Shown here piece by piece: positions 4,523 to 19,950 of a DNA stretch of 64,000 bases. The stretch is from Lyngbya aestuarii BL J (GTDB lineage Bacteria; Cyanobacteriota; Cyanobacteriia; Cyanobacteriales; Microcoleaceae): assembly GCF_000478195.2 (NCBI RefSeq), contig NZ_AUZM01000001.1, positions 124,001 to 188,000 on the forward strand. The letters are read 5' to 3'. Numbering within the stretch: position 1 is the stretch's first letter; each line of letters starts with the position of its first letter. The notes beneath the pieces were generated by a model, which made no database searches, was not told the DNA's origin, and worked only from the letters and a program-made list of their open reading frames with translations. Position numbers and translations under genes: made by a program.

Positions 4523-5866
4523 ATGTCTTCTCTTAATCCTCAACTCATTGCTCAGGTGCGTTTTCTACAACGTCAGGCTGCCTCTTTACTTCTCTATCAA
4601 TCGCTGCTAACTGATGCAATAGGACAAGCATTTATTAACTTACTTGTTGCTTTAGAACAGGAAAGTAATGCTTTAGATTGTCTACAAGCTTATGGAATTT
4701 TCTTCCAAGAACAAGCGGCTAATCAACAATGTTGGCAAGACTATTTAATTGCTCAAATTCTCCGGGCGGATAACCCTTTTACCCAACAAGCTCAACAAAC
4801 AGATTTAAAGAATTTGCCTTCGTCTTTAGTGGCAGCCGCAAAGTCAGATTTACACTGTTTACAAAGTCTCTATCAATGTAGTGGTGAACAACTGAGTCAA
4901 TGGATACAACAGTTGATTCCGTTATCTGTTGCCCCGGTGGTTTGGCAACCAGAACCGGATCGCGTTGAAAAAATAGAAGAATTGCCCCTAAAATCTCAAT
5001 TCGCTAAGTTGGAAAATTGGGGGGATATAATAGAAGAATTAGCGGCTCACTATCGACAGTTTGGCATCGGTTTATTTGCAAAGTCTCAAGCATTTCGTTG
5101 GCAGAATAGAGAATTGCTCGGTATTTTTCATCCTGATCCGGTTCATTTCAGTCAATTAATAGGTTATGAGTCTCAACGGCAAATTTTATTACAAAATACT
5201 GAGTTTTTGTTAGCGGGATATGCCGCGCAAAATGTGTTATTATATGGGAGTCGGGGTTCAGGAAAGTCGTCTTTAATTAAGGCATTATTACATCAATATG
5301 GCGATCGCGGTTTACGTTTAATTGAAGTCGCGAAGTCCGATCTTCAAGATTTACCGATCGTGATCGAACAGTTGCGGGGAAGTCCTCACAAATTTATTAT
5401 TTTTGTCGATGACCTCTCCTTTGAGGAAGATGATGATACATTTAAAGCCTTGAAAGTCGTACTCGAAGGTAATATTACCGCTCGTCCTCAAAATGTGGTG
5501 GTTTATGCCACCTCCAATCGTCGTCATTTAGTGCGAGAATATTTTGCAGACCGCCCCCAACCCCGAGAGGTAGATGAAGTTCAAGCTTGGGATACCGTCC
5601 AAGAAAAGCTGTCTTTTAGCGATCGCTTTGGTTTGACCTTAACCTTTGAACCGCCCGATCAACAAACATACCTGAAAATGGTTGATCATCTAGCGGCTTT
5701 AGCGGGTATTCGTCTGGAAACTCAAGAATTAGAATTTCGCGCCCTCCAATGGGCCACTCGTCACAATGGCCGTTCTGGACGCAGCGCCCGTCAGTTTGTA
5801 GACTTCCTCACGGCTGAACTCGCCCTATTTTCAGTCACCAGTCATCGTAGAGATCATGAATCGTAG
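4523..5866 (+). CDS. DUF815-family AAA ATPase
   Basis: A 447-residue cytoplasmic P-loop ATPase of the DUF815 family. The C-terminal half holds Walker A (YGSRGSGKSSL, about residue 240), a Walker B-like FVDDLSFEEDD, sensor 1 (VVVYATSNRRHL) and an SGRSARQF segment near the end, all typical of DUF815. The N-terminal 200 residues are a helical, Gln/Leu-rich domain seen in cyanobacterial members. The biological role is unknown; the ATPase class is clear. The stop codon lies in a 16-bp tandem duplication. Confidence 0.88.
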   Translation: MSSLNPQLIAQVRFLQRQAASLLLYQSLLTDAIGQAFINLLVALEQESNALDCLQAYGIFFQEQAANQQCWQDYLIAQILRADNPFTQQAQQTDLKNLPSSLVAAAKSDLHCLQSLYQCSGEQLSQWIQQLIPLSVAPVVWQPEPDRVEKIEELPLKSQFAKLENWGDIIEELAAHYRQFGIGLFAKSQAFRWQNRELLGIFHPDPVHFSQLIGYESQRQILLQNTEFLLAGYAAQNVLLYGSRGSGKSSLIKALLHQYGDRGLRLIEVAKSDLQDLPIVIEQLRGSPHKFIIFVDDLSFEEDDDTFKALKVVLEGNITARPQNVVVYATSNRRHLVREYFADRPQPREVDEVQAWDTVQEKLSFSDRFGLTLTFEPPDQQTYLKMVDHLAALAGIRLETQELEFRALQWATRHNGRSGRSARQFVDFLTAELALFSVTSHRRDHES

Positions 5867-6020: not shown

Positions 6021-6446
6021 ATGTCTTCTAGCATGACCAATACTATCGAACTCACTCCTGCTGAAGCTTTTGCTGCGATCGCATTAACCGCCGTTGCTGC
6101 TGATGGTATTATTACCGATAGTGAATCGCAAATTATCAAAAGTACCTTAGCCCGGATGGATTTATTTGGTGAGTACACCGCAGAAAATAAAACTCAAATG
6201 ATCCAGCGATTGTTGGAACAGATTGAAAACCACGGCTATGAGTCTCTGATGCAGTCTGCGATCACCAAATTACCTGCAAATCTCAAAGATACAGCGTTTG
6301 CTGTGGCGACTGATATTATTCTCTCAGATGGAGATCTTGCCGATGAAGAAGAGGAGTTGTTAAATGCTCTTTATAATGCTTTAGGGATATCAGAAGACAT
6401 AGCAACAAAGATCATAGATGTCATGTTGATCAAAAACAAGGGGTAA
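6021..6446 (+). CDS. TerB-like tellurite-resistance family protein
   Basis: A 141-residue acidic helical protein with the internally duplicated TerB fold. An 'AAxALTAVAADGxITDxE' segment at about residues 17-35 is echoed by 'DIILSDGDLADEEEELL' at about 97-113, and the DG-x-x-x-x-E acidic loops fit TerB metal-binding sites. Family members are linked to phage, tellurite and stress systems, but a lone TerB gene like this one has no known specific role. No other ter genes are present here. ATG start at 6021; an alternative ATG lies four codons later. Confidence 0.82.
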   Translation: MSSSMTNTIELTPAEAFAAIALTAVAADGIITDSESQIIKSTLARMDLFGEYTAENKTQMIQRLLEQIENHGYESLMQSAITKLPANLKDTAFAVATDIILSDGDLADEEEELLNALYNALGISEDIATKIIDVMLIKNKG

Positions 6447-6660: not shown

Positions 6661-7710
6661 ATGGCTTACATCCGAACAGTTCGCTTTCAAGATACGGATG
6701 CTGCTGGAGTGGTGTACTTTGCCAATATTTTAACGATTTGTCACGAAGCTTATGAAGCTTCCTTAGCAGCAGCTAAAATTAATCTCAAAACATTTTTTTG
6801 TAACCCCGACTTTGCGATTCCCATTGTTCATACAAGTGTTGATTTCTTTCAACCGCTTTTTTGTGGCGATCGCCTCCTGATTCACTTAATGCCTCAACAG
6901 ATTACAGAAAACACATTTGAAATTAACTACAATATACTTCTACATGATTCCGAAAAATGGGTTGCTAAAGCCATTACCAAGCACGTTTGTATTCATCCAA
7001 ATAGCCGGATCAGACAGCAACTTCCCGATGAAATTTTGCATTGGTTAAATGTAGAAACAATTGAACGCATCTTGAATAGTGTTGATGCAGTTGTTGTTTG
7101 GAATAATGGCAAAGCCTACTTTTTTAAAGACGATGAATATCTCAGTTATGATCTAAATTGGAACTGTATTGATTACGGTTATCCTCAGAAAATTAGTCAG
7201 GGAAGATGGGCAAGTTTTCCCGCCCGTTTTACTCAAGGAATTGATGCCGGATTAGTGTGGAATAATGGCAAAGCTTACTTTTTTAAAGGAGATGAATATG
7301 TTTGCTATGATTTGTATAAAGATCAGGTAGAAGCAGGTTATCCTCAAAAACTTAATAGTGGACTTTGGGTGGGATGGCCAAAACATTTTTATAGTGGTAT
7401 TGATACAGCCGCATTGTGGAAAAATGGCAAAGCTTATTTTTTCAAAGGAGATGAATATATTTGCTATGATTTGTATCGAGAAGTCACTGAATTAGGCTAT
7501 CCTAAAAAAATAGCAGATACTCATTGGCAGGGATGGCCAAAACAATTTACTCGTCGTATTGATGCCGCAGCCGTCTGGAAAAATGGTAAAGCTTATTTCT
7601 TTCGAGATGATGAATATATTTGTTATGATGTTAATCGAAATTGCACCGATCCAGGTTATCCTAAAAAAATCAAGGACAACTGGTTAAGTTTTTGGTGTCA
7701 ACTCTTATAG
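6661..7710 (+). CDS. Fusion: DHNA-CoA thioesterase (hotdog) + four hemopexin-like repeats
   Basis: Residues 1 to about 138 are a 4HBT-type hotdog thioesterase. [15 protein letters not shown] near the N-terminus carries the catalytic-type aspartate (D13) and matches cyanobacterial 1,4-dihydroxy-2-naphthoyl-CoA thioesterases, which act after MenB in phylloquinone synthesis. The normal protein ends at about 140 residues. Here the frame continues through four repeats of about 52 residues, at about 143-349, each with the pattern A-x-x-W-x-N-G-K-A-Y-F-F-[KR]-[GD]-D-E-Y-x-x-Y-D, then GYP-[QK]-K and W-x-x-[FW]-P. This is the hemopexin repeat, and four make a complete beta-propeller. No signal peptide, no gap and no stop interrupt the join. 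menE, menC and menH follow within 10 kb, supporting the pathway assignment. What the propeller does is unknown. Confidence 0.88.
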
Positions 7711-7747: not shown

Positions 7748-8695
7748 ATGTCAACTCGCAGCTATGCTATTTTAGGAACAGGAGCAATTGGAGGATTTTA
7801 CGGTGCAAAACTACAACAGCTTGGACTCGATGTACATTTCCTCTTAAATAGTGACTATGAACAGGTTTGTCGTCAGGGTTTATTGATAGAATCTCCGACG
7901 GGAAGTTTTACTCTCTTTCCCGTTCAAGCTTATCATGATCCTCAAAAAATGCCTGCTTGTGATGTTGTGATCATCGCGTTAAAAACAACCCAAAATCATC
8001 TTTTACCCCAACTTTTACCGCCCGTTCTCAAAGAAGATGGTGTCGTGATCGTCTTACAAAATGGATTAGGAATAGAACCCCAAGTTGCTGAAATTGTGAA
8101 CTCTAAACGAATCATTGGGGGAATGTGTTTTATCTGTTCTAATAAAGTCGGAAAAGGTCATATTCGTCACTTAGATTATGGGATGATTACCATAGGAGAA
8201 TATCAGGAAAATTATCAACCGATAAAAATTACGCCCCGAATTCAAAAAATTGCAGAAGACTTTAATCATGCCGGAATCCCTACAGAATTAAGTGAAAATT
8301 TACTTCTTGCTCGTTGGAAAAAGTTGGTTTGGAATATTCCCTATAATGGACTGTCTGTAGTTCTCAATGCAAAAACAGATGAATTGATGAACTCTCCAGA
8401 TAGTCGAATTTTAGTTGAAGAAATTATGCGAGAAGTGGTCAACGCAGCCAAAGGATGTGATTGCATCATTCCCGAACAATTTATCCAAAAAATGCTGAAT
8501 CATACGGAGAAAATGACACCTTATCTTACCAGTATGAAACTTGATTATGATAGAAAACGCCCTTTAGAAATTGAAGCAATTATCGGAAATCCTTTGCGAA
8601 TGGCGACAGAAAAAGGTGTTGATTTGCCTCATATTGCTATGCTATACCGACAACTCAAGTTTCTTGATTTTAAAAATCGATCACCTGACTCCTAA
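7748..8695 (+). CDS. Putative 2-dehydropantoate 2-reductase (ApbA/PanE family)
   Basis: A 315-residue NADPH-dependent oxidoreductase of the ketopantoate reductase family. It has an N-terminal Rossmann motif (GTGAIGGFYG, residues 10-19), the LQNGLG loop, a catalytic-type lysine in ARWKKLVWN, and the EAIIGNPLR segment near the C-terminus carrying the conserved glutamate. PanE reduces ketopantoate in coenzyme A synthesis. Many genomes carry several paralogues of unknown substrate, so the substrate is not certain here. It lies 37 bases after the thioesterase fusion on the same strand and may be co-transcribed. It converges with menE, with 10 bases between the stop codons. Confidence 0.83.
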   Translation: MSTRSYAILGTGAIGGFYGAKLQQLGLDVHFLLNSDYEQVCRQGLLIESPTGSFTLFPVQAYHDPQKMPACDVVIIALKTTQNHLLPQLLPPVLKEDGVVIVLQNGLGIEPQVAEIVNSKRIIGGMCFICSNKVGKGHIRHLDYGMITIGEYQENYQPIKITPRIQKIAEDFNHAGIPTELSENLLLARWKKLVWNIPYNGLSVVLNAKTDELMNSPDSRILVEEIMREVVNAAKGCDCIIPEQFIQKMLNHTEKMTPYLTSMKLDYDRKRPLEIEAIIGNPLRMATEKGVDLPHIAMLYRQLKFLDFKNRSPDS

Positions 8696-8705
8696 ATTGA
8701 TGAAA

Positions 8706-10139
8706 TTAGCGAGAATCAGTCGCACGATTGAGAAACTTTTCAGCCAGTTCTTCTAACTGTTTCAAGTTGAGTTTTCCTTGAACATTCCGAGGTAAAGACT
8801 CTACAGCTACCCAATATTTAGGCTGTTTAAACTTACTGAGTTTGTCTTGCAACGCGGTTTGCAAACTGGAGATAGAAACATCGGGAAAAGTAGGAACATA
8901 AACCGCAGTAATCACCTGTCCCCAATGAGAATCACATAAACCAATTACTCCTACATCCGCCACCAAACCCGTTGAACGAATCGCCCCTTCTACTTCCACC
9001 GGATACACATTTTCACCCCCAGTTAGAATTTTATAGCTATTTCGCCCTACAATTGTTAAATATCCCTGTTCATCGAGATAACCCAAATCATCAGATTTGA
9101 GCGTTTGCATTCTACATTTGGGATTGTATGTTTGACCATAATATCCTAACGTTAGAGAGTCTGCTTCTATCGAGATAATTCCCAGTTGATTGATACCCAA
9201 TTCTTGATTATTTTCAGTGTAGATTTTGATTTTAGCATGGGGTAAAACTTGACCATAACTGTTATTTCCTGCTAAAAACTCATCAGGTTTTAAAGTGGCA
9301 ATTTGAGCGGCTGTTTCTGTCATTCCATAGGTAGGAGCCAGTCGAATTTGATGCAATCTAGCCTGTTGTAATAATTCTAACCAAGCAGGCGCTCCCCCTA
9401 ACAAAACGGTTTTAAACTGCGACAGCCAACCAGGAGTTTGAGAGCGATTGAGAAGACGTTGGAGTTGAGTTGGAACAAGAGAAATGAAAAATTCTGAAGG
9501 ATTAAACTCAATCAATTCTCCGGTTTCTACCGCTTTAAACGGAAAAATTGCTAACCGTCCTCCCGTCGTAAAAGAACGCATAAATTGCATTAATCCACTG
9601 ACATGATATAATGGTAATGTACAAAAAGAATTGACTTTTTTTAAGTTAAAATACTGTTGAAATCCTTGCACCGAAGCCGTTAATGTTTCCCAAGTATGAA
9701 TCACAAACCGGAGATTTCCTGACGAACCGCCAGTGGGAATCATAATTGAGTTGGCAGGCGTCGGAATAACAGAATTAGTCTGAATGTAGGACGGGTTAAA
9801 TTCCTCTAAATTGCCGAAAATAACATCGGGATGAACGATTTTAAAAACCTGTTTCCATTCCGCTTTCACCCAGTTGGGGTTACACAAAAAAACCGGACAT
9901 TTGGCGACAACTGCGGCTAGAAACGTCGCTAAAAAAGCAATGGGTTCGGGTTCGGCGAGGATAATTTTCGGACGAACTCCCTGAGCGTTAATAAATTCGG
10001 TCAGGTCTTGAAGACGCTGTTGATAGATTTTATTAAACTCAAAGCTATTATATCCGATCAACCAATCATCGGTTCTCAAATTGATATAATTTTTAACATC
10101 AGTAGATGGGCAACTGATTTTCACTTGAAAAGATACCAC
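8706..10139 (-). CDS. menE: 2-succinylbenzoate-CoA ligase (MenE)
   Basis: Cytoplasmic adenylate-forming enzyme that activates o-succinylbenzoate with ATP and CoA, giving the substrate for MenB in phylloquinone synthesis. The ANL superfamily motifs are in order: phosphate loop PTGGSSG, aromatic/adenine motif PTYGMTETAAQ, GYLTIVGRNSYKILTGGENV with the hinge region, and near the C-terminus a lysine in NVQGKLN. At 477 residues it has the usual length. The start is a GTG at 10139, with no early alternative methionine. In cyanobacteria menE usually lies next to menC; here a CHAT/STAND cassette separates them. Confidence 0.92.
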   Translation of the reverse strand: MVSFQVKISCPSTDVKNYINLRTDDWLIGYNSFEFNKIYQQRLQDLTEFINAQGVRPKIILAEPEPIAFLATFLAAVVAKCPVFLCNPNWVKAEWKQVFKIVHPDVIFGNLEEFNPSYIQTNSVIPTPANSIMIPTGGSSGNLRFVIHTWETLTASVQGFQQYFNLKKVNSFCTLPLYHVSGLMQFMRSFTTGGRLAIFPFKAVETGELIEFNPSEFFISLVPTQLQRLLNRSQTPGWLSQFKTVLLGGAPAWLELLQQARLHQIRLAPTYGMTETAAQIATLKPDEFLAGNNSYGQVLPHAKIKIYTENNQELGINQLGIISIEADSLTLGYYGQTYNPKCRMQTLKSDDLGYLDEQGYLTIVGRNSYKILTGGENVYPVEVEGAIRSTGLVADVGVIGLCDSHWGQVITAVYVPTFPDVSISSLQTALQDKLSKFKQPKYWVAVESLPRNVQGKLNLKQLEELAEKFLNRATDSR

Positions 10140-10477: not shown

Positions 10478-11098
10478 ATGAAAACTATCTTAATTCTCTC
10501 GGCTAATCCCGCAGATACAAGCCGTTTACGTTTGGATACAGAAGTCAGGGAAATTCAACAAACTCTCAGACAATCACATCACAGAGACGAATTTACTGTG
10601 ATTCCAATGGGAGCGGTTCGGATTGATGATTTACAACAAACACTCTATGATCATCATCCCACCATTGTACACTTTTCGGGTCATGGTTCGGGAAATAATA
10701 GGTTAATTTTAGAAGACAATTCGGGTCGAAGCGTATTGGTGAGTGAGAAAGCACTAGCCCGATTATTTAAAGGGTTTCAAACAAAAGTTGAATGTGTTTT
10801 GTTAAACGCTTGTTATAGTGAAATTCAAGCCAAAGCCATTCATCAACATATTGATTGTGTTATCGGGATGAATCAAGCGATAGGAGACGAAGCCGCGATT
10901 AAATTTGCAGTCGGTTTTTATCGGGCGTTGGGGGCGGGAGAACCCTATGATAATTGTTTTGAATCGGGTCAAACTTTAATTGATTTAAACGCTATTTCTG
11001 AAGTTGATAAACCTCAAATTAAATATCGAGACAGAACGCAAAATTTAGCCATGAGTTCTAATCAGGAATCTAACAAAGCGATACCATCTCCTCAATAA
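10478..11098 (+). CDS. CHAT-domain caspase-like protease
   Basis: A 206-residue protein that is mostly a CHAT (caspase HetF-associated) domain. The catalytic dyad is visible: H69 in VHFSGHGSG and C112 in LLNACYSE, followed by the IGMNQAIGDEAAIKFAVGFY-type segment (positions about 129-148) that closes the fold. The N-terminal ILILSANPADTSRLRLDTE is the usual beginning of cyanobacterial short CHAT proteins. CHAT proteases are effectors in bacterial NTPase-based conflict systems. Here the next genes are a small protein and a STAND NTPase, so it is most likely the protease arm of one system. It appears intact, unlike its two neighbours. Confidence 0.88.
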   Translation: MKTILILSANPADTSRLRLDTEVREIQQTLRQSHHRDEFTVIPMGAVRIDDLQQTLYDHHPTIVHFSGHGSGNNRLILEDNSGRSVLVSEKALARLFKGFQTKVECVLLNACYSEIQAKAIHQHIDCVIGMNQAIGDEAAIKFAVGFYRALGAGEPYDNCFESGQTLIDLNAISEVDKPQIKYRDRTQNLAMSSNQESNKAIPSPQ

Positions 11099-11110
11099 AA
11101 TCCTGCTACT

Positions 11111-11506
11111 ATGAACAAATCTCAATCTTTTGGTAACATAACCATTAGTGGAAATAGTGGAACCCATAATCAAGGTTTTCAAGCAATCAATACGGTAGAT
11201 TCTGAGGTTAATCTTGATCAAAGCTATACCCAAACCGTCGGAGAAAGTTCTAAGTTATAAACAGCATTAAATGAACTGCAAAAGCTGAAACAGGAAATTT
11301 CTGCAACAAATGCACTCAACTCTATTCAGAAAAAACAAGCAGAGTTACCTGTTGAAATGATAGAAACAGAACTCAAGAAACCGCAACCCGACAAAGGTTT
11401 AATAGATGAAGCAGTTGAGGCACTTAAAAAAGGATTAGAAGGTGTTGAAACCCTGGCTGAACCTGTGATGAAAGTGGCGGCAATTTTAGCAGGGGTTTGG
11501 ATTTAA
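11111..11506 (+). pseudogene. Small CHAT-cassette protein interrupted by an in-frame TAA
   Basis: An ATG at 11111 opens a 132-codon frame broken by one TAA at 11258-11260 (codon 50). The frame then continues to a TAA at 11504-11506. The first part has the motif NKSQSFGNITISGN followed by an Asn/Thr-rich stretch. The second part is helical (NELQKLKQEI) and ends with a hydrophobic helix (VMKVAAILAGVWI). The stop could come from a CAA glutamine codon by one base change. Either the gene is newly inactivated or only a 49-residue motif peptide is made. The same 14-residue motif opens the next gene, suggesting that the two products interact. No named family recognised. Confidence 0.7.
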
Positions 11507-11637
11507 CGCCCCCCAGCCCCCAATTCTGGGGGAGTAAAATACAGCACTATAAAAGTTTTACGAATTCGCAAATAGTATCAGAATTGGGAGTATTAACTCA
11601 AAGTCCCCCATTATTGGGGGATTTAGGGGGCGAGGAT
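11507..11637. repeat. GC-rich imperfect inverted-repeat element between the cassette genes
   Basis: The left part (CGCCCCCCAGCCCCCAATT, then CTGGGGGAGT) and the right part (AGTCCCCCATTATTGGGGGA, then TTTAGGGGGCG) are imperfect reverse complements, each also hairpin-forming, around an AT-rich core of about 70 bases. It resembles the small palindromic dispersed elements of cyanobacterial intergenic DNA and encodes nothing. Confidence 0.65.
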
Positions 11638-11671
11638 TTAGGTTTAACAATAAACTGTATATCTGGAGTAA

Positions 11672-14308
11672 ATGATGAGTGAAGAAACAAACGATAAACC
11701 GCTCTTAAATAAAAGTCAGAGTGCAGGAGATGTAACAATTTCAGGCAATGAAGATCCGCTTGTGAACTTCGTGAATACAACGGAGGGAACCACAAGTATT
11801 AATCAATCTCGGACTATTATCTACAACTATTTTTATGAAAAACGCACCGTTACCACATCCACCGAAGATGATCTCGATGATAACTTAATCTGTCCCTATC
11901 AAGGCTTGTATCATTTTAATCCAGAAAATTCTGAATATTTCTTTGGGCGAGAGGTCTTTGTTGAAGAACTCTATCAATATACCGAAACCCGCAATTTTAT
12001 TCCGGTGTTGGGTGCGTCTGGGAGCGGTAAATCTTCGGTCATTTTAGCGGGATTGGTGCCGAAATTAGTCGAAGCCGGACGCTGGCAATTTACCCATTTT
12101 CGACCGGGAAACGAGCCATTTCTTGCCCTCGCACAAGCATTAGTTCCGCTCTATGAACCCAACCTTGAGAAAACAGAACTCATTGCACAAGCTCGTAAAT
12201 TATCAGGATATTTTCAAGATAATACAGTTCCTTGATCGGATGTTTTTTCAACTATTCAACAGAATAATCATCAAAATCGTACTTTATTAATTGCCGACCA
12301 ATTTGAGGAAGTTTACACCCTTTGTAACGACGAAAAAATCCGACGAAATTTTCTAGATTTACTCTTAAATACTTTTAAAACTCTTGCCGAACAATCTTCT
12401 TTATCTACTGTCTTAGTTGCCACGATGCGGGCGGATTTTCTTGGAAATGCGCTGTCTTATCGACCTTTAGCTGATGTATTGCAACAAGGTAATATTATGT
12501 TAGGGCCGATGAATGAAAATGAACTGCGAGATATTGTTGAAAAACCCGCGCAAAAATTGGGGGTGAGTTTTGAAGGCGGACTGGTTGAACGCATTCTCAA
12601 AGATGTGGATAAAAATCCAGGAAATTTACCCCTATTAGAATTTGCCCTAACCGAACTTTGGAAAAAACGAAACGGCAAACAATTAACTCATAAAGCTTAT
12701 GAAGAAATTGGGGAAGTTGACGGCGCATTAACTCGCTACGCTGACGATAAATTTAGTAAACTAAAAGTAGAAGAAAAAGAACAAGTTCGGCGAATCTTTG
12801 TGCAGTTAGTACAACCCGGTGCGGGAACCGAAGACACCCGACGAGTGGCAACAAAAGCAGATGTAAACGAGCCAAATTGGAATTTGGTAAAAAAATTAGC
12901 AGATGAGCGGTTAGTTGTTACCAGTCGCACGGTTATCGCCCGTGAAACAACAGAAAATTCCCAACCCCAACCGGACAATATCAAAGAACAGGAAACCGTC
13001 GAAGTCGTCCACGAAGCGTTAATAAAAAACTGGGGTCAACTCAGACAATGGATGGAAACCGACCGAGAATTTAGAACCTGGCAAGAACGACTGCGGGAGT
13101 CCGAACGTCAGTGGGAAGAAATGAACCGAGATAATGGGTTATTGTTGCGGGGGGCGGCGCTGCTTCTGGCTTCCGAACAACTCAAAAAACGGGGTGATGA
13201 ACTGTCTCAAAACGAACGAAAATTTATTCAAAAAAGTCAGAAATATAAACAACGTCAACATCAACGCACTATCGGCTTTTTGACCGCAAGTTTTGTAACC
13301 ATTTCTGGAGTAGCAGCAGTAGCAGTATGGCAGTGGCGAGAAGCAAATATCAGCAAGGAAAACGCACTTATTGGGGAAAACAATGCTAATTTCAGAGCCG
13401 AAATAGCAACCTTAGAACCTCGCTTAAATTCTAGCTTGGCTGTGCAGATGGATGTTATCAAACTCAATCAAAAATTGCAGCAACGGGCAATAGCAACAAC
13501 ATCAGATATCGAGATACAAGGTGCAGACTTGCTGCGACAAATCGTTGACTGGTCGGGACATAAAGAAATCAACAGCCTCAAAGGGCATGAGAGTCCTGTC
13601 AACAGTGTGGCATTCAGCAGAGACGGGGATATGATCGCCTCTGGGAGTGATGACAAGACGGTGAAACTGTGGAACTTTAACCGAGATGAACTCCTCAAAC
13701 ACGCTTGCAGTTGGATGAGTGACTACCTGAAAAATAACCCGAATGTCACCGAAGATGAACGTCGCTTTTGTGAAGTGGAAGCTTCGGCAACCGCTTTGTT
13801 TTTGCAGGGTGAACATCAAGCCGCACAGGGTAAAATTGATGAAGCGGTTTCTCAGTTTAAAGAAGCGGTTAAACTTGACCCCAAGTATAGTTTAGATTGG
13901 GCAGCAGCGAGTTTTGTTAGAAGTGGAAATTTGTTAGTAAGAGTTTATAAATTTGATGAAGCAATTGCAGCTTTTAATCAAGCTCAAGAATTTGATTCTA
14001 ATATTGAAATTACAGCTTCAGATTGGAATAAACTGTGTTGGCAAGGAAGCGTTAATAAACAAGCTGAGAAGGTGATGTTTGCTTGTAATAAAGCCGTTGA
14101 ACTCGCCCCTGAGAATGGATGGATTTATAGTAGTCGGGGTTTAGCTAGGGCGTTAACGGGTGATTTTAATGGCGCTGTTGAGGACTTTGAAATGTTCGTT
14201 CAGTTGGGGGGAAATGAGGAGGAAAAAGCACTGCGAAACGGTTGGATAGAGTCTCTGAAAAAGAATGAAAATCCGTTTACCGATGAGATATTGGAAGGGT
14301 TGCGTTGA
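11672..14308 (+). pseudogene. STAND/NACHT-like NTPase with one WD40 repeat and TPRs, interrupted by an in-frame TGA
   Basis: An 879-codon gene split by a single TGA at 12233-12235; both parts share one frame. Part 1 (187 residues) has the N-terminal motif NKSQSAGDVTISGN, then YQGLYHFNPENSEYFFGRE and Walker A (GASGSGKSSV). After the stop come Walker B (LLIADQFEEVY), an arginine motif (MRADFLGNAL) and the winged-helix region (LPLLEFALTELW), then one hydrophobic helix (near 13280), a single WD40 repeat (SVAFSRDGDMIASGSDD) and TPR-like repeats. This is the cyanobacterial nSTAND-WD40 type, but the propeller is reduced to one blade. The stop probably arose from a TGG tryptophan codon. Separation of Walker A from Walker B should abolish ATP hydrolysis unless the stop is read through. 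The second half could restart at an internal ATG (12425 or later), but without the P-loop. Confidence 0.8.
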
Positions 14309-14408: not shown

Positions 14409-15344
14409 TTACCAATGTTCGACGCCAAAACCAACCGCACGTTTGGGATGAGAAAGTTCAGCAGCCAAATTCAAAGCCGCACGTCTACCCACCGCCGTTT
14501 CAAACACCGATGAAAATACCGCATCAATTTGATTTTCACGGCACAACTTTCGCAGTTTTCGCGGAGAACCCACAATAGCGGGTTTTATCACAAAAATACC
14601 CCGCCAACCCCGTTGATAACAGTCTCGAATTTGGGATAAAGTTGCAACAGATTCATCCAACGCGATAGAAGTCAAATACTGCCGACTCAACGCCAACATT
14701 TCATCAAACTGTTCGATGGATAAAGGTTGTTCTAGATATTCAATTTTGAGAATATCAGATTTTATTTCATCGCAAACCGATAACCATTTGTTCGCCTCCT
14801 CCCAACTGAGTCCCCCGTTCGCATCCAACCGCAAATTAACCCATTCTGTCTTATCCGTTTCCGAGTTAATTGTGGTTAATATCAGTTCGGTTAACTGTTG
14901 AAAAAGTTGTAGTTCTTCAGAAATTGGATGAACCGCGATTTTCCATTTAAACGTTCTAAACCCTTGCTGAAATAGCGTTGGAAAAACTGGTAACGCCGCG
15001 TTTCCAGACGGTAAAAGTCCGCTAAATTTAAGTTTGCTTAAAAACTCGCTGTTTTCTTCCAAAGCCGACTCAAACCCAAACTGACAAGCCGGAAAGTTAT
15101 CAGGAATTTCGATAATATCTTCTAACGTTAACGTTTGGGGAAGTTGCTGACAAAACTCCAACGCCTGTCCCAACGTTTCCGAACCAAACCAACTCAACGG
15201 TGCAATTTCACCATCACCTTTTTTTCCTTGTTTGTCGGTAAGCTGAAGAATAATTCCCTCCCGTTTCTCCCAAATTCCGTGATGGGTTTTCAACGGTTGT
15301 TTGAACGGACGAGAATAGGGAGAAAATTGAAACCGATAAACCAT
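14409..15344 (-). CDS. menC: o-Succinylbenzoate synthase (MenC)
   Basis: Enolase-superfamily enzyme that dehydrates SHCHC to o-succinylbenzoate in phylloquinone synthesis (cytoplasm). All active-site residues are visible: the K-x-K pair K133/K135 (FKWKIAV), metal ligands D174 (LRLDANGG), E205 (EYLEQPL) and D230 (ALDESV), and K254 (FVIKPAIVG). At 311 residues it has the normal length. Its ATG at 15344 directly abuts the menH stop codon (no gap), so the two are surely co-transcribed, with menH first. Confidence 0.94.
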   Translation of the reverse strand: MVYRFQFSPYSRPFKQPLKTHHGIWEKREGIILQLTDKQGKKGDGEIAPLSWFGSETLGQALEFCQQLPQTLTLEDIIEIPDNFPACQFGFESALEENSEFLSKLKFSGLLPSGNAALPVFPTLFQQGFRTFKWKIAVHPISEELQLFQQLTELILTTINSETDKTEWVNLRLDANGGLSWEEANKWLSVCDEIKSDILKIEYLEQPLSIEQFDEMLALSRQYLTSIALDESVATLSQIRDCYQRGWRGIFVIKPAIVGSPRKLRKLCRENQIDAVFSSVFETAVGRRAALNLAAELSHPKRAVGFGVEHW

Positions 15345-16142
15345 TTAACTTAACAAAAACCCTTGCACAACTTCCACCCACCGTTGGGGATTTTCTACAT
15401 GAATATTATGACCGCAACCGGGAACAATTTCAAGCGTTGCAGTCGAACAAATATTAGCCATTTCGCGATTAATTTTGATAAACTTTTCGTCCAACTCCCC
15501 CGCCAACAATAAAAGCGGTATTTCCGACGTTGATAGTTTATCCCAAAGCGGGGGCTGATTTCCCGTTCCCATCCATCGCAAAGATTTCGCTAATTCGGTT
15601 GAATTATTTTGCAGGCGTCGTGCTAAAATAGTATTAAAGTTGGGATGAGTTTTAAACGTTTTAAATAACGGCTTGTCGTACCAACAGGTTAAAAATTCTT
15701 CTAAGTTTAATTCTTCCAGTTCTTCAGCGAGTTGAAGATCGGATAGATAACGTTCAGTTCGTTCTTTCTCGGTTTTTAATCCCGGAGAAGCAGATTCTAA
15801 AATAACTTTTTGAAAATATTGGGAATAATTTAAAGCCAAATAAAGCGCCAACCGTCCCCCCATCGAATAACCAACGAGAAAACACCGTTTAATGTTCAAT
15901 TCTTCCAGCCAGCAAATTAAACCGTTAGCCGTATTTTCTAGGCTGTAAAATTCATCAGTTCCGTTAACTTGGGTGTTTCCGTGTCCCGGTAAATCAACCG
16001 CCAAACAATTAAATTTTTCTGATAAAAGGGAAATGACCGCGTTAAAATCCTTGCCATTTCCCATAAATCCATGTAAAAACAAGAGAATTGGTAAGCTGGT
16101 GTTTTCCGTGCGAAAATAGTGAAAGTTATAAGTTTGTATCAT
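15345..16142 (-). CDS. menH: SHCHC synthase (MenH), alpha/beta hydrolase
   Basis: An alpha/beta-hydrolase-fold lyase of 265 residues that removes pyruvate from SEPHCHC to give SHCHC, the MenC substrate. The triad is visible: S93 in VGYSMGG, an aspartate in LAGELDEKF and a histidine in GCGHNIHVENP, with the oxyanion loop LFLHGFMGNGKDF. Hydrolases of this fold are hard to tell apart by sequence alone; the direct fusion-like spacing with menC makes MenH by far the best call. ATG start at 16142. Confidence 0.9.
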   Translation of the reverse strand: MIQTYNFHYFRTENTSLPILLFLHGFMGNGKDFNAVISLLSEKFNCLAVDLPGHGNTQVNGTDEFYSLENTANGLICWLEELNIKRCFLVGYSMGGRLALYLALNYSQYFQKVILESASPGLKTEKERTERYLSDLQLAEELEELNLEEFLTCWYDKPLFKTFKTHPNFNTILARRLQNNSTELAKSLRWMGTGNQPPLWDKLSTSEIPLLLLAGELDEKFIKINREMANICSTATLEIVPGCGHNIHVENPQRWVEVVQGFLLS

Positions 16143-18503: not shown

Positions 18504-19097
18504 TTGCTCACCTCTCCCTATACAGGCTATCCAGAACGTGAATGGTCGGCAATCACAACACAACTGATCGATGAATTTCCACTTTCTAGTGAAGTTATAA
18601 TTTCTACGGTTGAGGAAGCATGGAAAGATCTTTATTCTTCGAGTTTTGGGGATTTTAGATTACAAATTGGTCGAGATATCTTTTTACCCGCTCAAGCCAT
18701 TGGAGTTATTTTAGAGCGTTTGATCGCCGTTCGTCTGGCTCATCAAAACTCGGGCTGGAGAGGTGGTCAAACAAAATCAGAAAAAGATATCGTTTGTACT
18801 TTTAATGATCGTTATTCCTTTGAAATTAAAACATCTTCGAGTAAAAATAGCTTTTATGGAAATAGAAGTACAGGTTATCGTTCAGATAATCGCTTGAAGT
18901 CCAGAACAGGGTATTATCTAATTATTAACTACAAACTCCCCAAAGAAGATAATTTAGAACGAAAAATATGGAAAATACGTTTTGGTTGGATTGATGATCA
19001 AGATTGGGTTGGTCAAAATAAACCAACAGGACAACAAGCATCTATCGCCAGTAAAATCGCTGGTTTGAAGTTAGTTACAATCAAGAGTAGTCAGTAA
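18504..19097 (+). CDS. Type II restriction endonuclease, ScaI-like
   Basis: A 197-residue protein whose opening SPYTGYPEREWS and overall pattern recall the ScaI endonuclease family (AGTACT). A PD-(D/E)xK active site fits: D95 (KSEKDIVCTF) with E107 and K109 (YSFEIKTSS). The start is a TTG directly after the controller stop codon, and AGGAG inside the end of the controller gene is correctly spaced for it. Its 3' end overlaps the convergent methylase by 17 bases. Specificity is inferred, not proven. The gene looks intact. Confidence 0.8.
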   Translation: MLTSPYTGYPEREWSAITTQLIDEFPLSSEVIISTVEEAWKDLYSSSFGDFRLQIGRDIFLPAQAIGVILERLIAVRLAHQNSGWRGGQTKSEKDIVCTFNDRYSFEIKTSSSKNSFYGNRSTGYRSDNRLKSRTGYYLIINYKLPKEDNLERKIWKIRFGWIDDQDWVGQNKPTGQQASIASKIAGLKLVTIKSSQ

Positions 19098-19950
19098 GTA
19101 ACTCAAATAAACTTTTTTGTTCAACTCCATTTGATTGTTCATCACGAAATGCTTTAATTCGCTTGATTGCCATATCAATATATAAATCATTAATCTCAAA
19201 ACCTATTATCTTGCGACCATTTCGGATAGCGGCTTCTGCGGTTGAACCCGAACCCAAAAAAGGATCAAAAACAATATCTCCTAAATTACTACTGGCTAGA
19301 ATAATCCGGCTAACAAGCTGAATTGGAAATTGAGCAGGATGAGGAGTTCTTTCTTTTGAACTGCGATTTTTTCCCGATGTCACTTTGGGAATTTGCCAAA
19401 CATCGGTAGGATTTTTACCTTTTGTATTACATTTGAGCTTACCGTTTTTCTTTTGATGGGGATATTTAACATTTGGATCGCGCACATCATCCAAATTAAA
19501 TGTATAATTATTGGCATCTTTAATGTACCACAAAAACTTCTCATTTCGCGGAGAAAAAAATAATTTCCCTGCCACACCTGCACTATAATTCCAAACAATT
19601 TCTTGAATTAAATAAAAAGGAACTTTATCCCAAATCAAATAAGGAATCGGAATAGCTTTAGCTTGATTTGGAAGGGATAGATATCCCAGATTTAACCAAA
19701 AAGCTCCATTTGTTGATGTGCAATAATAAACTTGAGCAATCCATTCAGTCATCCAGGCAATATAATCCTCTACAGATAACACCGATTCATATTCTTTTCC
19801 AATGTTATAAGGAGGAGAAGTTACCGTCAAACAAAAACATCCTTCAGGCAATTGATTCATTAACTTTAAACAATCACCCGGATAGATTAATACATCCTGA
19901 TCTTCATAAGCAGGATTTCCTAAAAAAGACTTAAATTCACATAACTCCAT
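19081..19950 (-). CDS. Type II DNA methyltransferase, probably N4-cytosine (beta class)
   Basis: A 289-residue site-specific methylase. Catalytic motif IV (TSPPYNIG, residues 44-51) precedes the AdoMet-binding motif I (FDPFLGSGST) near the C-terminus, which is the beta-class order. TSPPY is typical of N4-cytosine enzymes, the type found with ScaI. A variable target-recognition region lies between. It protects the host from the neighbouring nuclease and is transcribed convergently. ATG start at 19950. Confidence 0.87.
   Translation of the reverse strand: MELCEFKSFLGNPAYEDQDVLIYPGDCLKLMNQLPEGCFCLTVTSPPYNIGKEYESVLSVEDYIAWMTEWIAQVYYCTSTNGAFWLNLGYLSLPNQAKAIPIPYLIWDKVPFYLIQEIVWNYSAGVAGKLFFSPRNEKFLWYIKDANNYTFNLDDVRDPNVKYPHQKKNGKLKCNTKGKNPTDVWQIPKVTSGKNRSSKERTPHPAQFPIQLVSRIILASSNLGDIVFDPFLGSGSTAEAAIRNGRKIIGFEINDLYIDMAIKRIKAFRDEQSNGVEQKSLFELLTDYS

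Follow-up and report, generated by a model that had tools for sequence, protein, structure and literature searches.

Fusion of a predicted DHNA-CoA thioesterase of phylloquinone synthesis to a C-terminal hemopexin propeller in a small number of filamentous cyanobacteria

In a handful of filamentous cyanobacteria, an enzyme that supplies a precursor of vitamin K1, a quinone of photosynthesis, has apparently acquired an additional arm, for docking or sensing. The gene in question lies in a stretch of 64,000 nucleotides of Lyngbya aestuarii BL J (hereafter the window), where it occupies 6661..7710 on the forward strand and encodes a protein of 349 aa: a DHNA-CoA thioesterase of the MenI/Slr0204 type followed by a four-bladed hemopexin propeller. 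The propeller is tentatively explained here as an acquired C-terminal part of a phylloquinone synthesis enzyme, most likely a cytosolic docking module and probably gained once.

Both halves are read in a single open frame of 349 codons (6661-7710, forward strand) in the translation of the window. Pfam 4HBT_2 matches residues 7-129 with 57.1 bits against a cut-off of 25.5, and Pfam Hemopexin (PF00045) matches four stretches with 117.2 bits (E 2.8e-34, cut-off 21.3). These matches bear out the original prediction of a thioesterase running unbroken into four hemopexin repeats, and the identity that it gave to each half is upheld further by the match to Slr0204, the structure model and the fold comparison. 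The hotdog thioesterase domain, placed by 4HBT_2, PDB 4k00 and the fold match, covers 6661..7050 (+, residues 1-130), and the AlphaFold2 model predicts a continuous helix between enzyme and propeller (7027..7077, +, residues 123-139). The four blades follow on the same strand at 7084..7242 (residues 142-194), 7243..7401 (195-247), 7402..7560 (248-300) and 7561..7707 (301-349); in a profile search of the genome, the repeats mapped to approximately 7081-7203, 7240-7356, 7399-7518 and 7558-7698. By eye, the protein has no apparent signal peptide or membrane segment. An assembly join or a missed stop, which would have undone the prediction, is very unlikely, since the full-length frame is also open in four other genomes.

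The thioesterase half is of a familiar kind. Among solved structures, its best match by sequence (E 7.7e-28) is PDB 4k00, the Slr0204 protein of Synechocystis; the hotdog domain of the model aligns with 4k00_B at Z 20.6 over 133 residues (rmsd 1.4, 41-42% identity). The catalytic-type motif of 13 residues noted earlier is present intact in the translation. A DTD motif occupies residues 11-13, and D11, T12 and D13 are identical in all 114 aligned thioesterase rows (105 of them different). The catalytic aspartate, which we take to be Asp16 of Slr0204, corresponds to D13 here if the 4k00 alignment is read with a three-residue tag. The protein thus has the sequence and hotdog fold, the DTD motif and the Men-pathway context of an Slr0204-type DHNA-CoA thioesterase (cyanobacterial MenI), and by homology this half would hydrolyse DHNA-CoA to DHNA. 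It scores below the cut-offs of all four NCBIfam models that it matched, and it falls outside the YbgC/FadM acyl-CoA thioesterases (TIGR00051), with 45.1 bits against a cut-off of 68.7. With the whole fused protein as query, no second Slr0204-type enzyme was found in the same genome at E 1e-3. One other 4HBT_2 protein is encoded there; it reads HTDYAGIVW where the fused protein has a different stretch of ten residues, and looks YbgC-like by eye. A second enzyme of the Slr0204 type that would free the fused one was therefore rejected as a candidate, and the fused protein is apparently the sole DHNA-CoA thioesterase of this cell.

The genes around it include several of the same pathway. Directly upstream is a TerB-like gene (6021..6446, +; assigned by synteny and by Pfam TerB, at 24.7 bits against a cut-off of 24.4), preceded by the gene for a P-loop ATPase (4523..5866, +) with a weak, below cut-off Hda-like match. 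Directly downstream is a panE-like gene for a 2-dehydropantoate 2-reductase (7748..8695, +; NF004887 above cut-off, and synteny). On the reverse strand there follow menE (o-succinylbenzoate-CoA ligase, 8706..10139; NF005662), menC (o-succinylbenzoate synthase, 14409..15344; NF002739) and menH (SHCHC synthase, 15345..16142; TIGR03695), all above cut-off, and menB and a cyanobacterial menA are found in the genome. The block ATPase-TerB-thioesterase-panE-menE recurs in several Microcoleus-type relatives, and in many relatives the thioesterase gene is close to menE. The fused gene occupies the orthologous thioesterase place in this block, with the propeller lying between the thioesterase and panE.

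Two other features of the window may be mentioned here. Between menE and menC, at 10478-14308, lie a gene for a CHAT-domain protein and then one for an nSTAND1/WD40/TPR protein in two frames (11672-12235 and 12425-14308); menE and menC adjoin in relatives such as those at loci L058 and L061, and the two genes have the look of a defence-type cassette that was inserted here and may be broken. Further along, at 18504-19950, a ScaI-type restriction endonuclease gene is convergent with an N6/N4 DNA methylase gene, making up a compact type II restriction-modification pair.

How widespread is the fusion? A search for this domain order in cyanobacteria, one of the checks that had been proposed, yielded four more full-length fusions and one broken one, all within the family. 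A match was found in 59 of 61 genomes of the family and the full-length fusion in five (the genome of the window, G047, G050, G052 and G053), the other four proteins being 57-60% identical to that of the window. In a sixth genome, G004, the same two halves lie in broken frames, which may be errors of metagenome assembly. Across the order, 365 of 388 genomes had a match and no further fusion appeared among the matches listed (to about E 7e-47), and the unusual nature of the architecture, remarked on at first, is upheld; stand-alone thioesterase relatives are 58-69% identical. Near relatives of the propeller are scarce in the phylum: it matched in five of 386 genomes, three of these being the fusions, and in 11 of 388 genomes of the class (a sample that overlaps with that of the phylum), two of these being the fusions. 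A profile search of the genome of the window found no other hemopexin repeat. Hidden fusions elsewhere were also considered and rejected: among 34 hemopexin loci, partly overlapping and with limited flanks, a thioesterase match occurred at three, and all three were the known fusions. The gene neighbourhoods compared around matches were the best 80 of 156 and the genome samples were parts of larger groups, and diverged fusions could have been missed by them. A phage or viral source of the hemopexin part was rejected likewise, since no phage record matched, and no viral contig matched peptide patterns of the whole protein. Among the papers listed by literature searches outside subscription journals there was no report of a thioesterase-hemopexin fusion, and the accessible part of PMC4614350 describes none. 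Both halves are of known kinds, and we rate their combination as new, as a domain fusion of a known enzyme. Other cyanobacterial hemopexin repeats occur in quite different settings: a 453-aa open reading frame at locus L154 (730-2091) encodes, by eye, an astacin-type metalloprotease and then hemopexin repeats, an MMP-like layout, and at loci L131-L133 and most of L155-L171 there are giant open frames (approximately 2,300-5,300 aa) with scattered weak hemopexin repeat matches.

The fold of the C-terminal half was examined by AlphaFold2 modelling of one chain on a 47-row alignment in which only five rows cover the propeller. The best of the five models (mean pLDDT 87.2, pTM 0.73) contains the hotdog domain, the helix at residues 123-139 and the strands of four blades; the others had pLDDT values of 83.0, 65.7, 61.5 and 60.1, three of the five thus being poor (60-66). 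(An earlier model from five rows, with a mean pLDDT of 63.7, was excluded from fold claims, and alignment A2, which forced hemopexin-only rows into thioesterase columns, was replaced by alignment A3, which omits those rows.) With four repeats above the cut-off, a four-bladed fold in the model and Z values of up to 26.0, this half belongs to the hemopexin-repeat proteins (PF00045). By sequence, it matches MMP-14, vitronectin and the plant seed albumins of hemopexin fold. By VIA-align, the closest folds are plant seed albumins with a single propeller (21-26% identity; Z 25.7-26.0 over 201-204 residues), with Z values of 20-25 for MMPs and 19.7 for serum hemopexin; ranked by Foldseek E-value, MMPs come first, an MMP-1 entry at the top, and vitronectin is also among the matches.

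Such resemblances raise the question of whether the propeller senses a ligand, be it haem or another tetrapyrrole, Ca2+/Na+ or a polyamine, and so tunes the thioesterase and hence the phylloquinone supply for photosystem I. Serum hemopexin holds haem between two propellers, with histidine ligands. The fusion has one propeller, and H242 is the sole propeller histidine common to the five intact fusions (it is present also in the readable piece of G004), which sets it apart from serum-type haem-binding hemopexins. This lowers the case for a serum-type hemopexin, not for a propeller that may bind a tetrapyrrole. The plant albumins that are its best VIA-align matches speak for sensing, since, according to the accessible part of PMC6934871, DC25 bound a haem analogue, LS24 was seen with spermine bound and relatives have ions in their central channels. 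The invariant H242, the presence among the fold matches of vitronectin propellers that bind calcium or sodium, and the upstream TerB-like neighbor, whose family is named for tellurite resistance and could hint at metals, point the same way. On the other hand, a lone propeller with a single conserved histidine is a poor match for haem binding of the serum type, a central ion may have a structural role only, sister species keep the enzyme without the propeller, and the neighbors (ATPase, TerB-like, panE-like, menE, menC and menH) include no known haem gene. A ligand sensor is an unlikely alternative, though one of the two foremost rivals to docking. The link between quinone synthesis and haem or metal status that was originally envisaged is unsupported, although the propeller may still bind a ligand; an anchor near a membrane, also envisaged at first, is conjectural. 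Less likely again is the specific version in which a propeller taken into the cytosol regulates this essential enzyme, reading a tetrapyrrole or ion signal so that phylloquinone is supplied in step with photosystem I production.

Is the propeller of any use at all? Between fused pairs, its dN/dS is 0.13-0.25, with the 95% bootstrap interval below 0.5 in all six pairs that were bootstrapped. Between the two g10 lineages (g10 being one of the genera with the fusion), the propeller (0.13-0.17) is below the thioesterase (0.31-0.43); the fusions at loci L002 and L003 are alike in the two halves (0.22 for the propeller and 0.19 for the thioesterase); and between the window and g10, the propeller (0.24-0.25) is above the thioesterase (0.16), with synonymous sites near saturation, chiefly in the thioesterase. 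From these comparisons of coding sequence, the propeller is under purifying selection comparable to that on the enzyme half. It is absent from six of the ten g10 genomes and frame-broken in G004, as might be expected of a neutral or mildly deleterious passenger in the course of being lost, but dN/dS values so far below 1 and the possibility that the G004 breaks are assembly errors make such a passenger highly improbable. Because it is under purifying selection, the propeller is a kept functional part and not a passenger; since six of the ten g10 genomes do without it, it cannot be essential, and those sisters show it to be dispensable.

Conservation is uneven along the propeller. Blades 1-3 of the window best match the same-numbered blades of L002 and L004, except that blade 1 ties with blade 3 in L004. 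Blade 2 is the most conserved between the window and g10 (75% to L002 and 72% to L004), and in four sequences its invariant positions amount to 64% vs 40% for blade 1. Blade 4 of the window (7561-7707) resembles blade 3 of two g10 proteins (55-57%) more closely than it does their blade 4 (43-47%); sequence exchange between blades, or drift of the g10 blade 4, could give such a pattern. The preference for blade 2 bears on whether the propeller merely stabilises or multimerises the enzyme. The predicted helix leading into the propeller would suit that role, and fold stability would likewise yield purifying selection; however, stability alone does not predict that blade 2 should be kept more than blade 1, and stand-alone relatives at 58-69% identity manage without a propeller, which leaves this explanation improbable.

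The propeller's history was followed on trees. A three-gene tree was built from 39 of the 114 rows (30 for the ATPase, 29 for TerB and 39 for the thioesterase), ten of them with less than half of the columns. On it, a split supported at 96/95 separates 27 rows from a group made up of the window, G004 and the ten g10 genomes, within which G004 joins the window at 100/96. The fused state needs two changes on this tree, and a single change suffices in none of 200 bootstrap trees; a gain followed by a loss costs the same number of changes as two gains. The tree from the thioesterase alone (114 rows, 129 columns) is poorly resolved, needs three changes and places G004, with its broken frames, apart from the window on a long branch of weak support. 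Among 12 hemopexin sequences, with G004 left out, the propellers of the five intact fusions group together as a clade (100/99), and the junction has the identical position, with no length difference, in all five. The six g10 genomes that lack the propeller keep a stand-alone thioesterase, which stops at the domain edge with differing short tails. A hemopexin remnant behind these genes was rejected: the three forward frames 3' of all six (211-220 bases each) show none by eye. The window's panE-like reductase had no match at E 1e-3 in the same six genomes (L007-L012; G044-G046, G048, G049 and G051, of which G049 is 73% complete), whose pantoate route may differ, whereas panE adjoins the fusion in all four fused g10 genomes. 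In G004, panE and the broken fusion are on different contigs. A single gain is favoured over two gains because the propellers form one clade, the junction position is the same and panE is absent from the unfused g10 genomes. The propeller would then probably have had a single origin, predating the split of genera g1, g5 and g10, and part of g10 would have lost it; the panE pattern suggests that one deletion taking both propeller and panE would account for the unfused state.

The junction and the distribution among genera also bear on whether the propeller has its own unrelated job, for instance as a ligand buffer or a lectin-like deterrent of grazers, and relies on the thioesterase gene for steady expression alone. 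Stand-alone hemopexin-repeat proteins do exist (e.g., one of 194 aa on a Streptomyces plasmid), same-genus relatives retain the enzyme without the propeller, and residues 131-140 diverge strongly between the window and g10, but not within close pairs. However, the fusion is intact in two genera, g1 and g10, and junction length is constant across the five intact fusions. An unrelated job is a minor possibility, on a par with ligand sensing.

What, then, might the propeller do for the enzyme? Hemopexin propellers are mostly known from secreted or storage proteins, and binding of proteins or other ligands is common among them, as in MMPs and vitronectin. MenB makes DHNA-CoA and the membrane prenyltransferase MenA consumes DHNA, and placement of the enzyme between them is therefore a plausible gain. 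The thioesterase step in cyanobacteria is given in the accessible part of a review (PMC5030760). In the docking explanation that is tentatively preferred, the hotdog half would convert DHNA-CoA to DHNA, the helix at residues 123-139 would carry the propeller, and the propeller would dock the enzyme in the cytosol beside a partner, e.g., its supplier MenB or the membrane-bound MenA. Neither a partner nor a co-occurring gene speaks for docking, and the model covers one chain, not a thioesterase multimer.

Whatever its role, the propeller has been joined to what is apparently a photosynthetic cell's only DHNA-CoA thioesterase and has been kept there by selection, while close sisters do without it. 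The fused and unfused sisters amount to a natural experiment on what a propeller adds to a core enzyme of photosynthesis, and the locus lends itself to studying the origin and loss of domain fusions.

Several known systems share parts of this architecture. Slr0204 (4k00) has the same hotdog domain and DTD motif, but its chain of 141 residues stops after the hotdog domain, where the fusion continues with the helix and the four-bladed propeller. The plant albumins DC25 (6ix1), LS24 (3lp9) and CP4 (3oyo) likewise consist of a single four-bladed hemopexin propeller; unlike the fusion, they are seed proteins without an enzyme domain. Bacterial hemopexin-repeat proteins, such as those on Streptomyces and Nostoc plasmids, are 41-46% identical in three plasmid records, the best of the nine, but their loci have no thioesterase. 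The layout is that of the MMPs, in which an enzyme is likewise followed by a C-terminal hemopexin propeller and which, with vitronectin, give the best propeller sequence matches. MMPs are secreted zinc proteases and vitronectin is an adhesion protein, whereas the fusion is a CoA thioesterase and has no apparent signal peptide.
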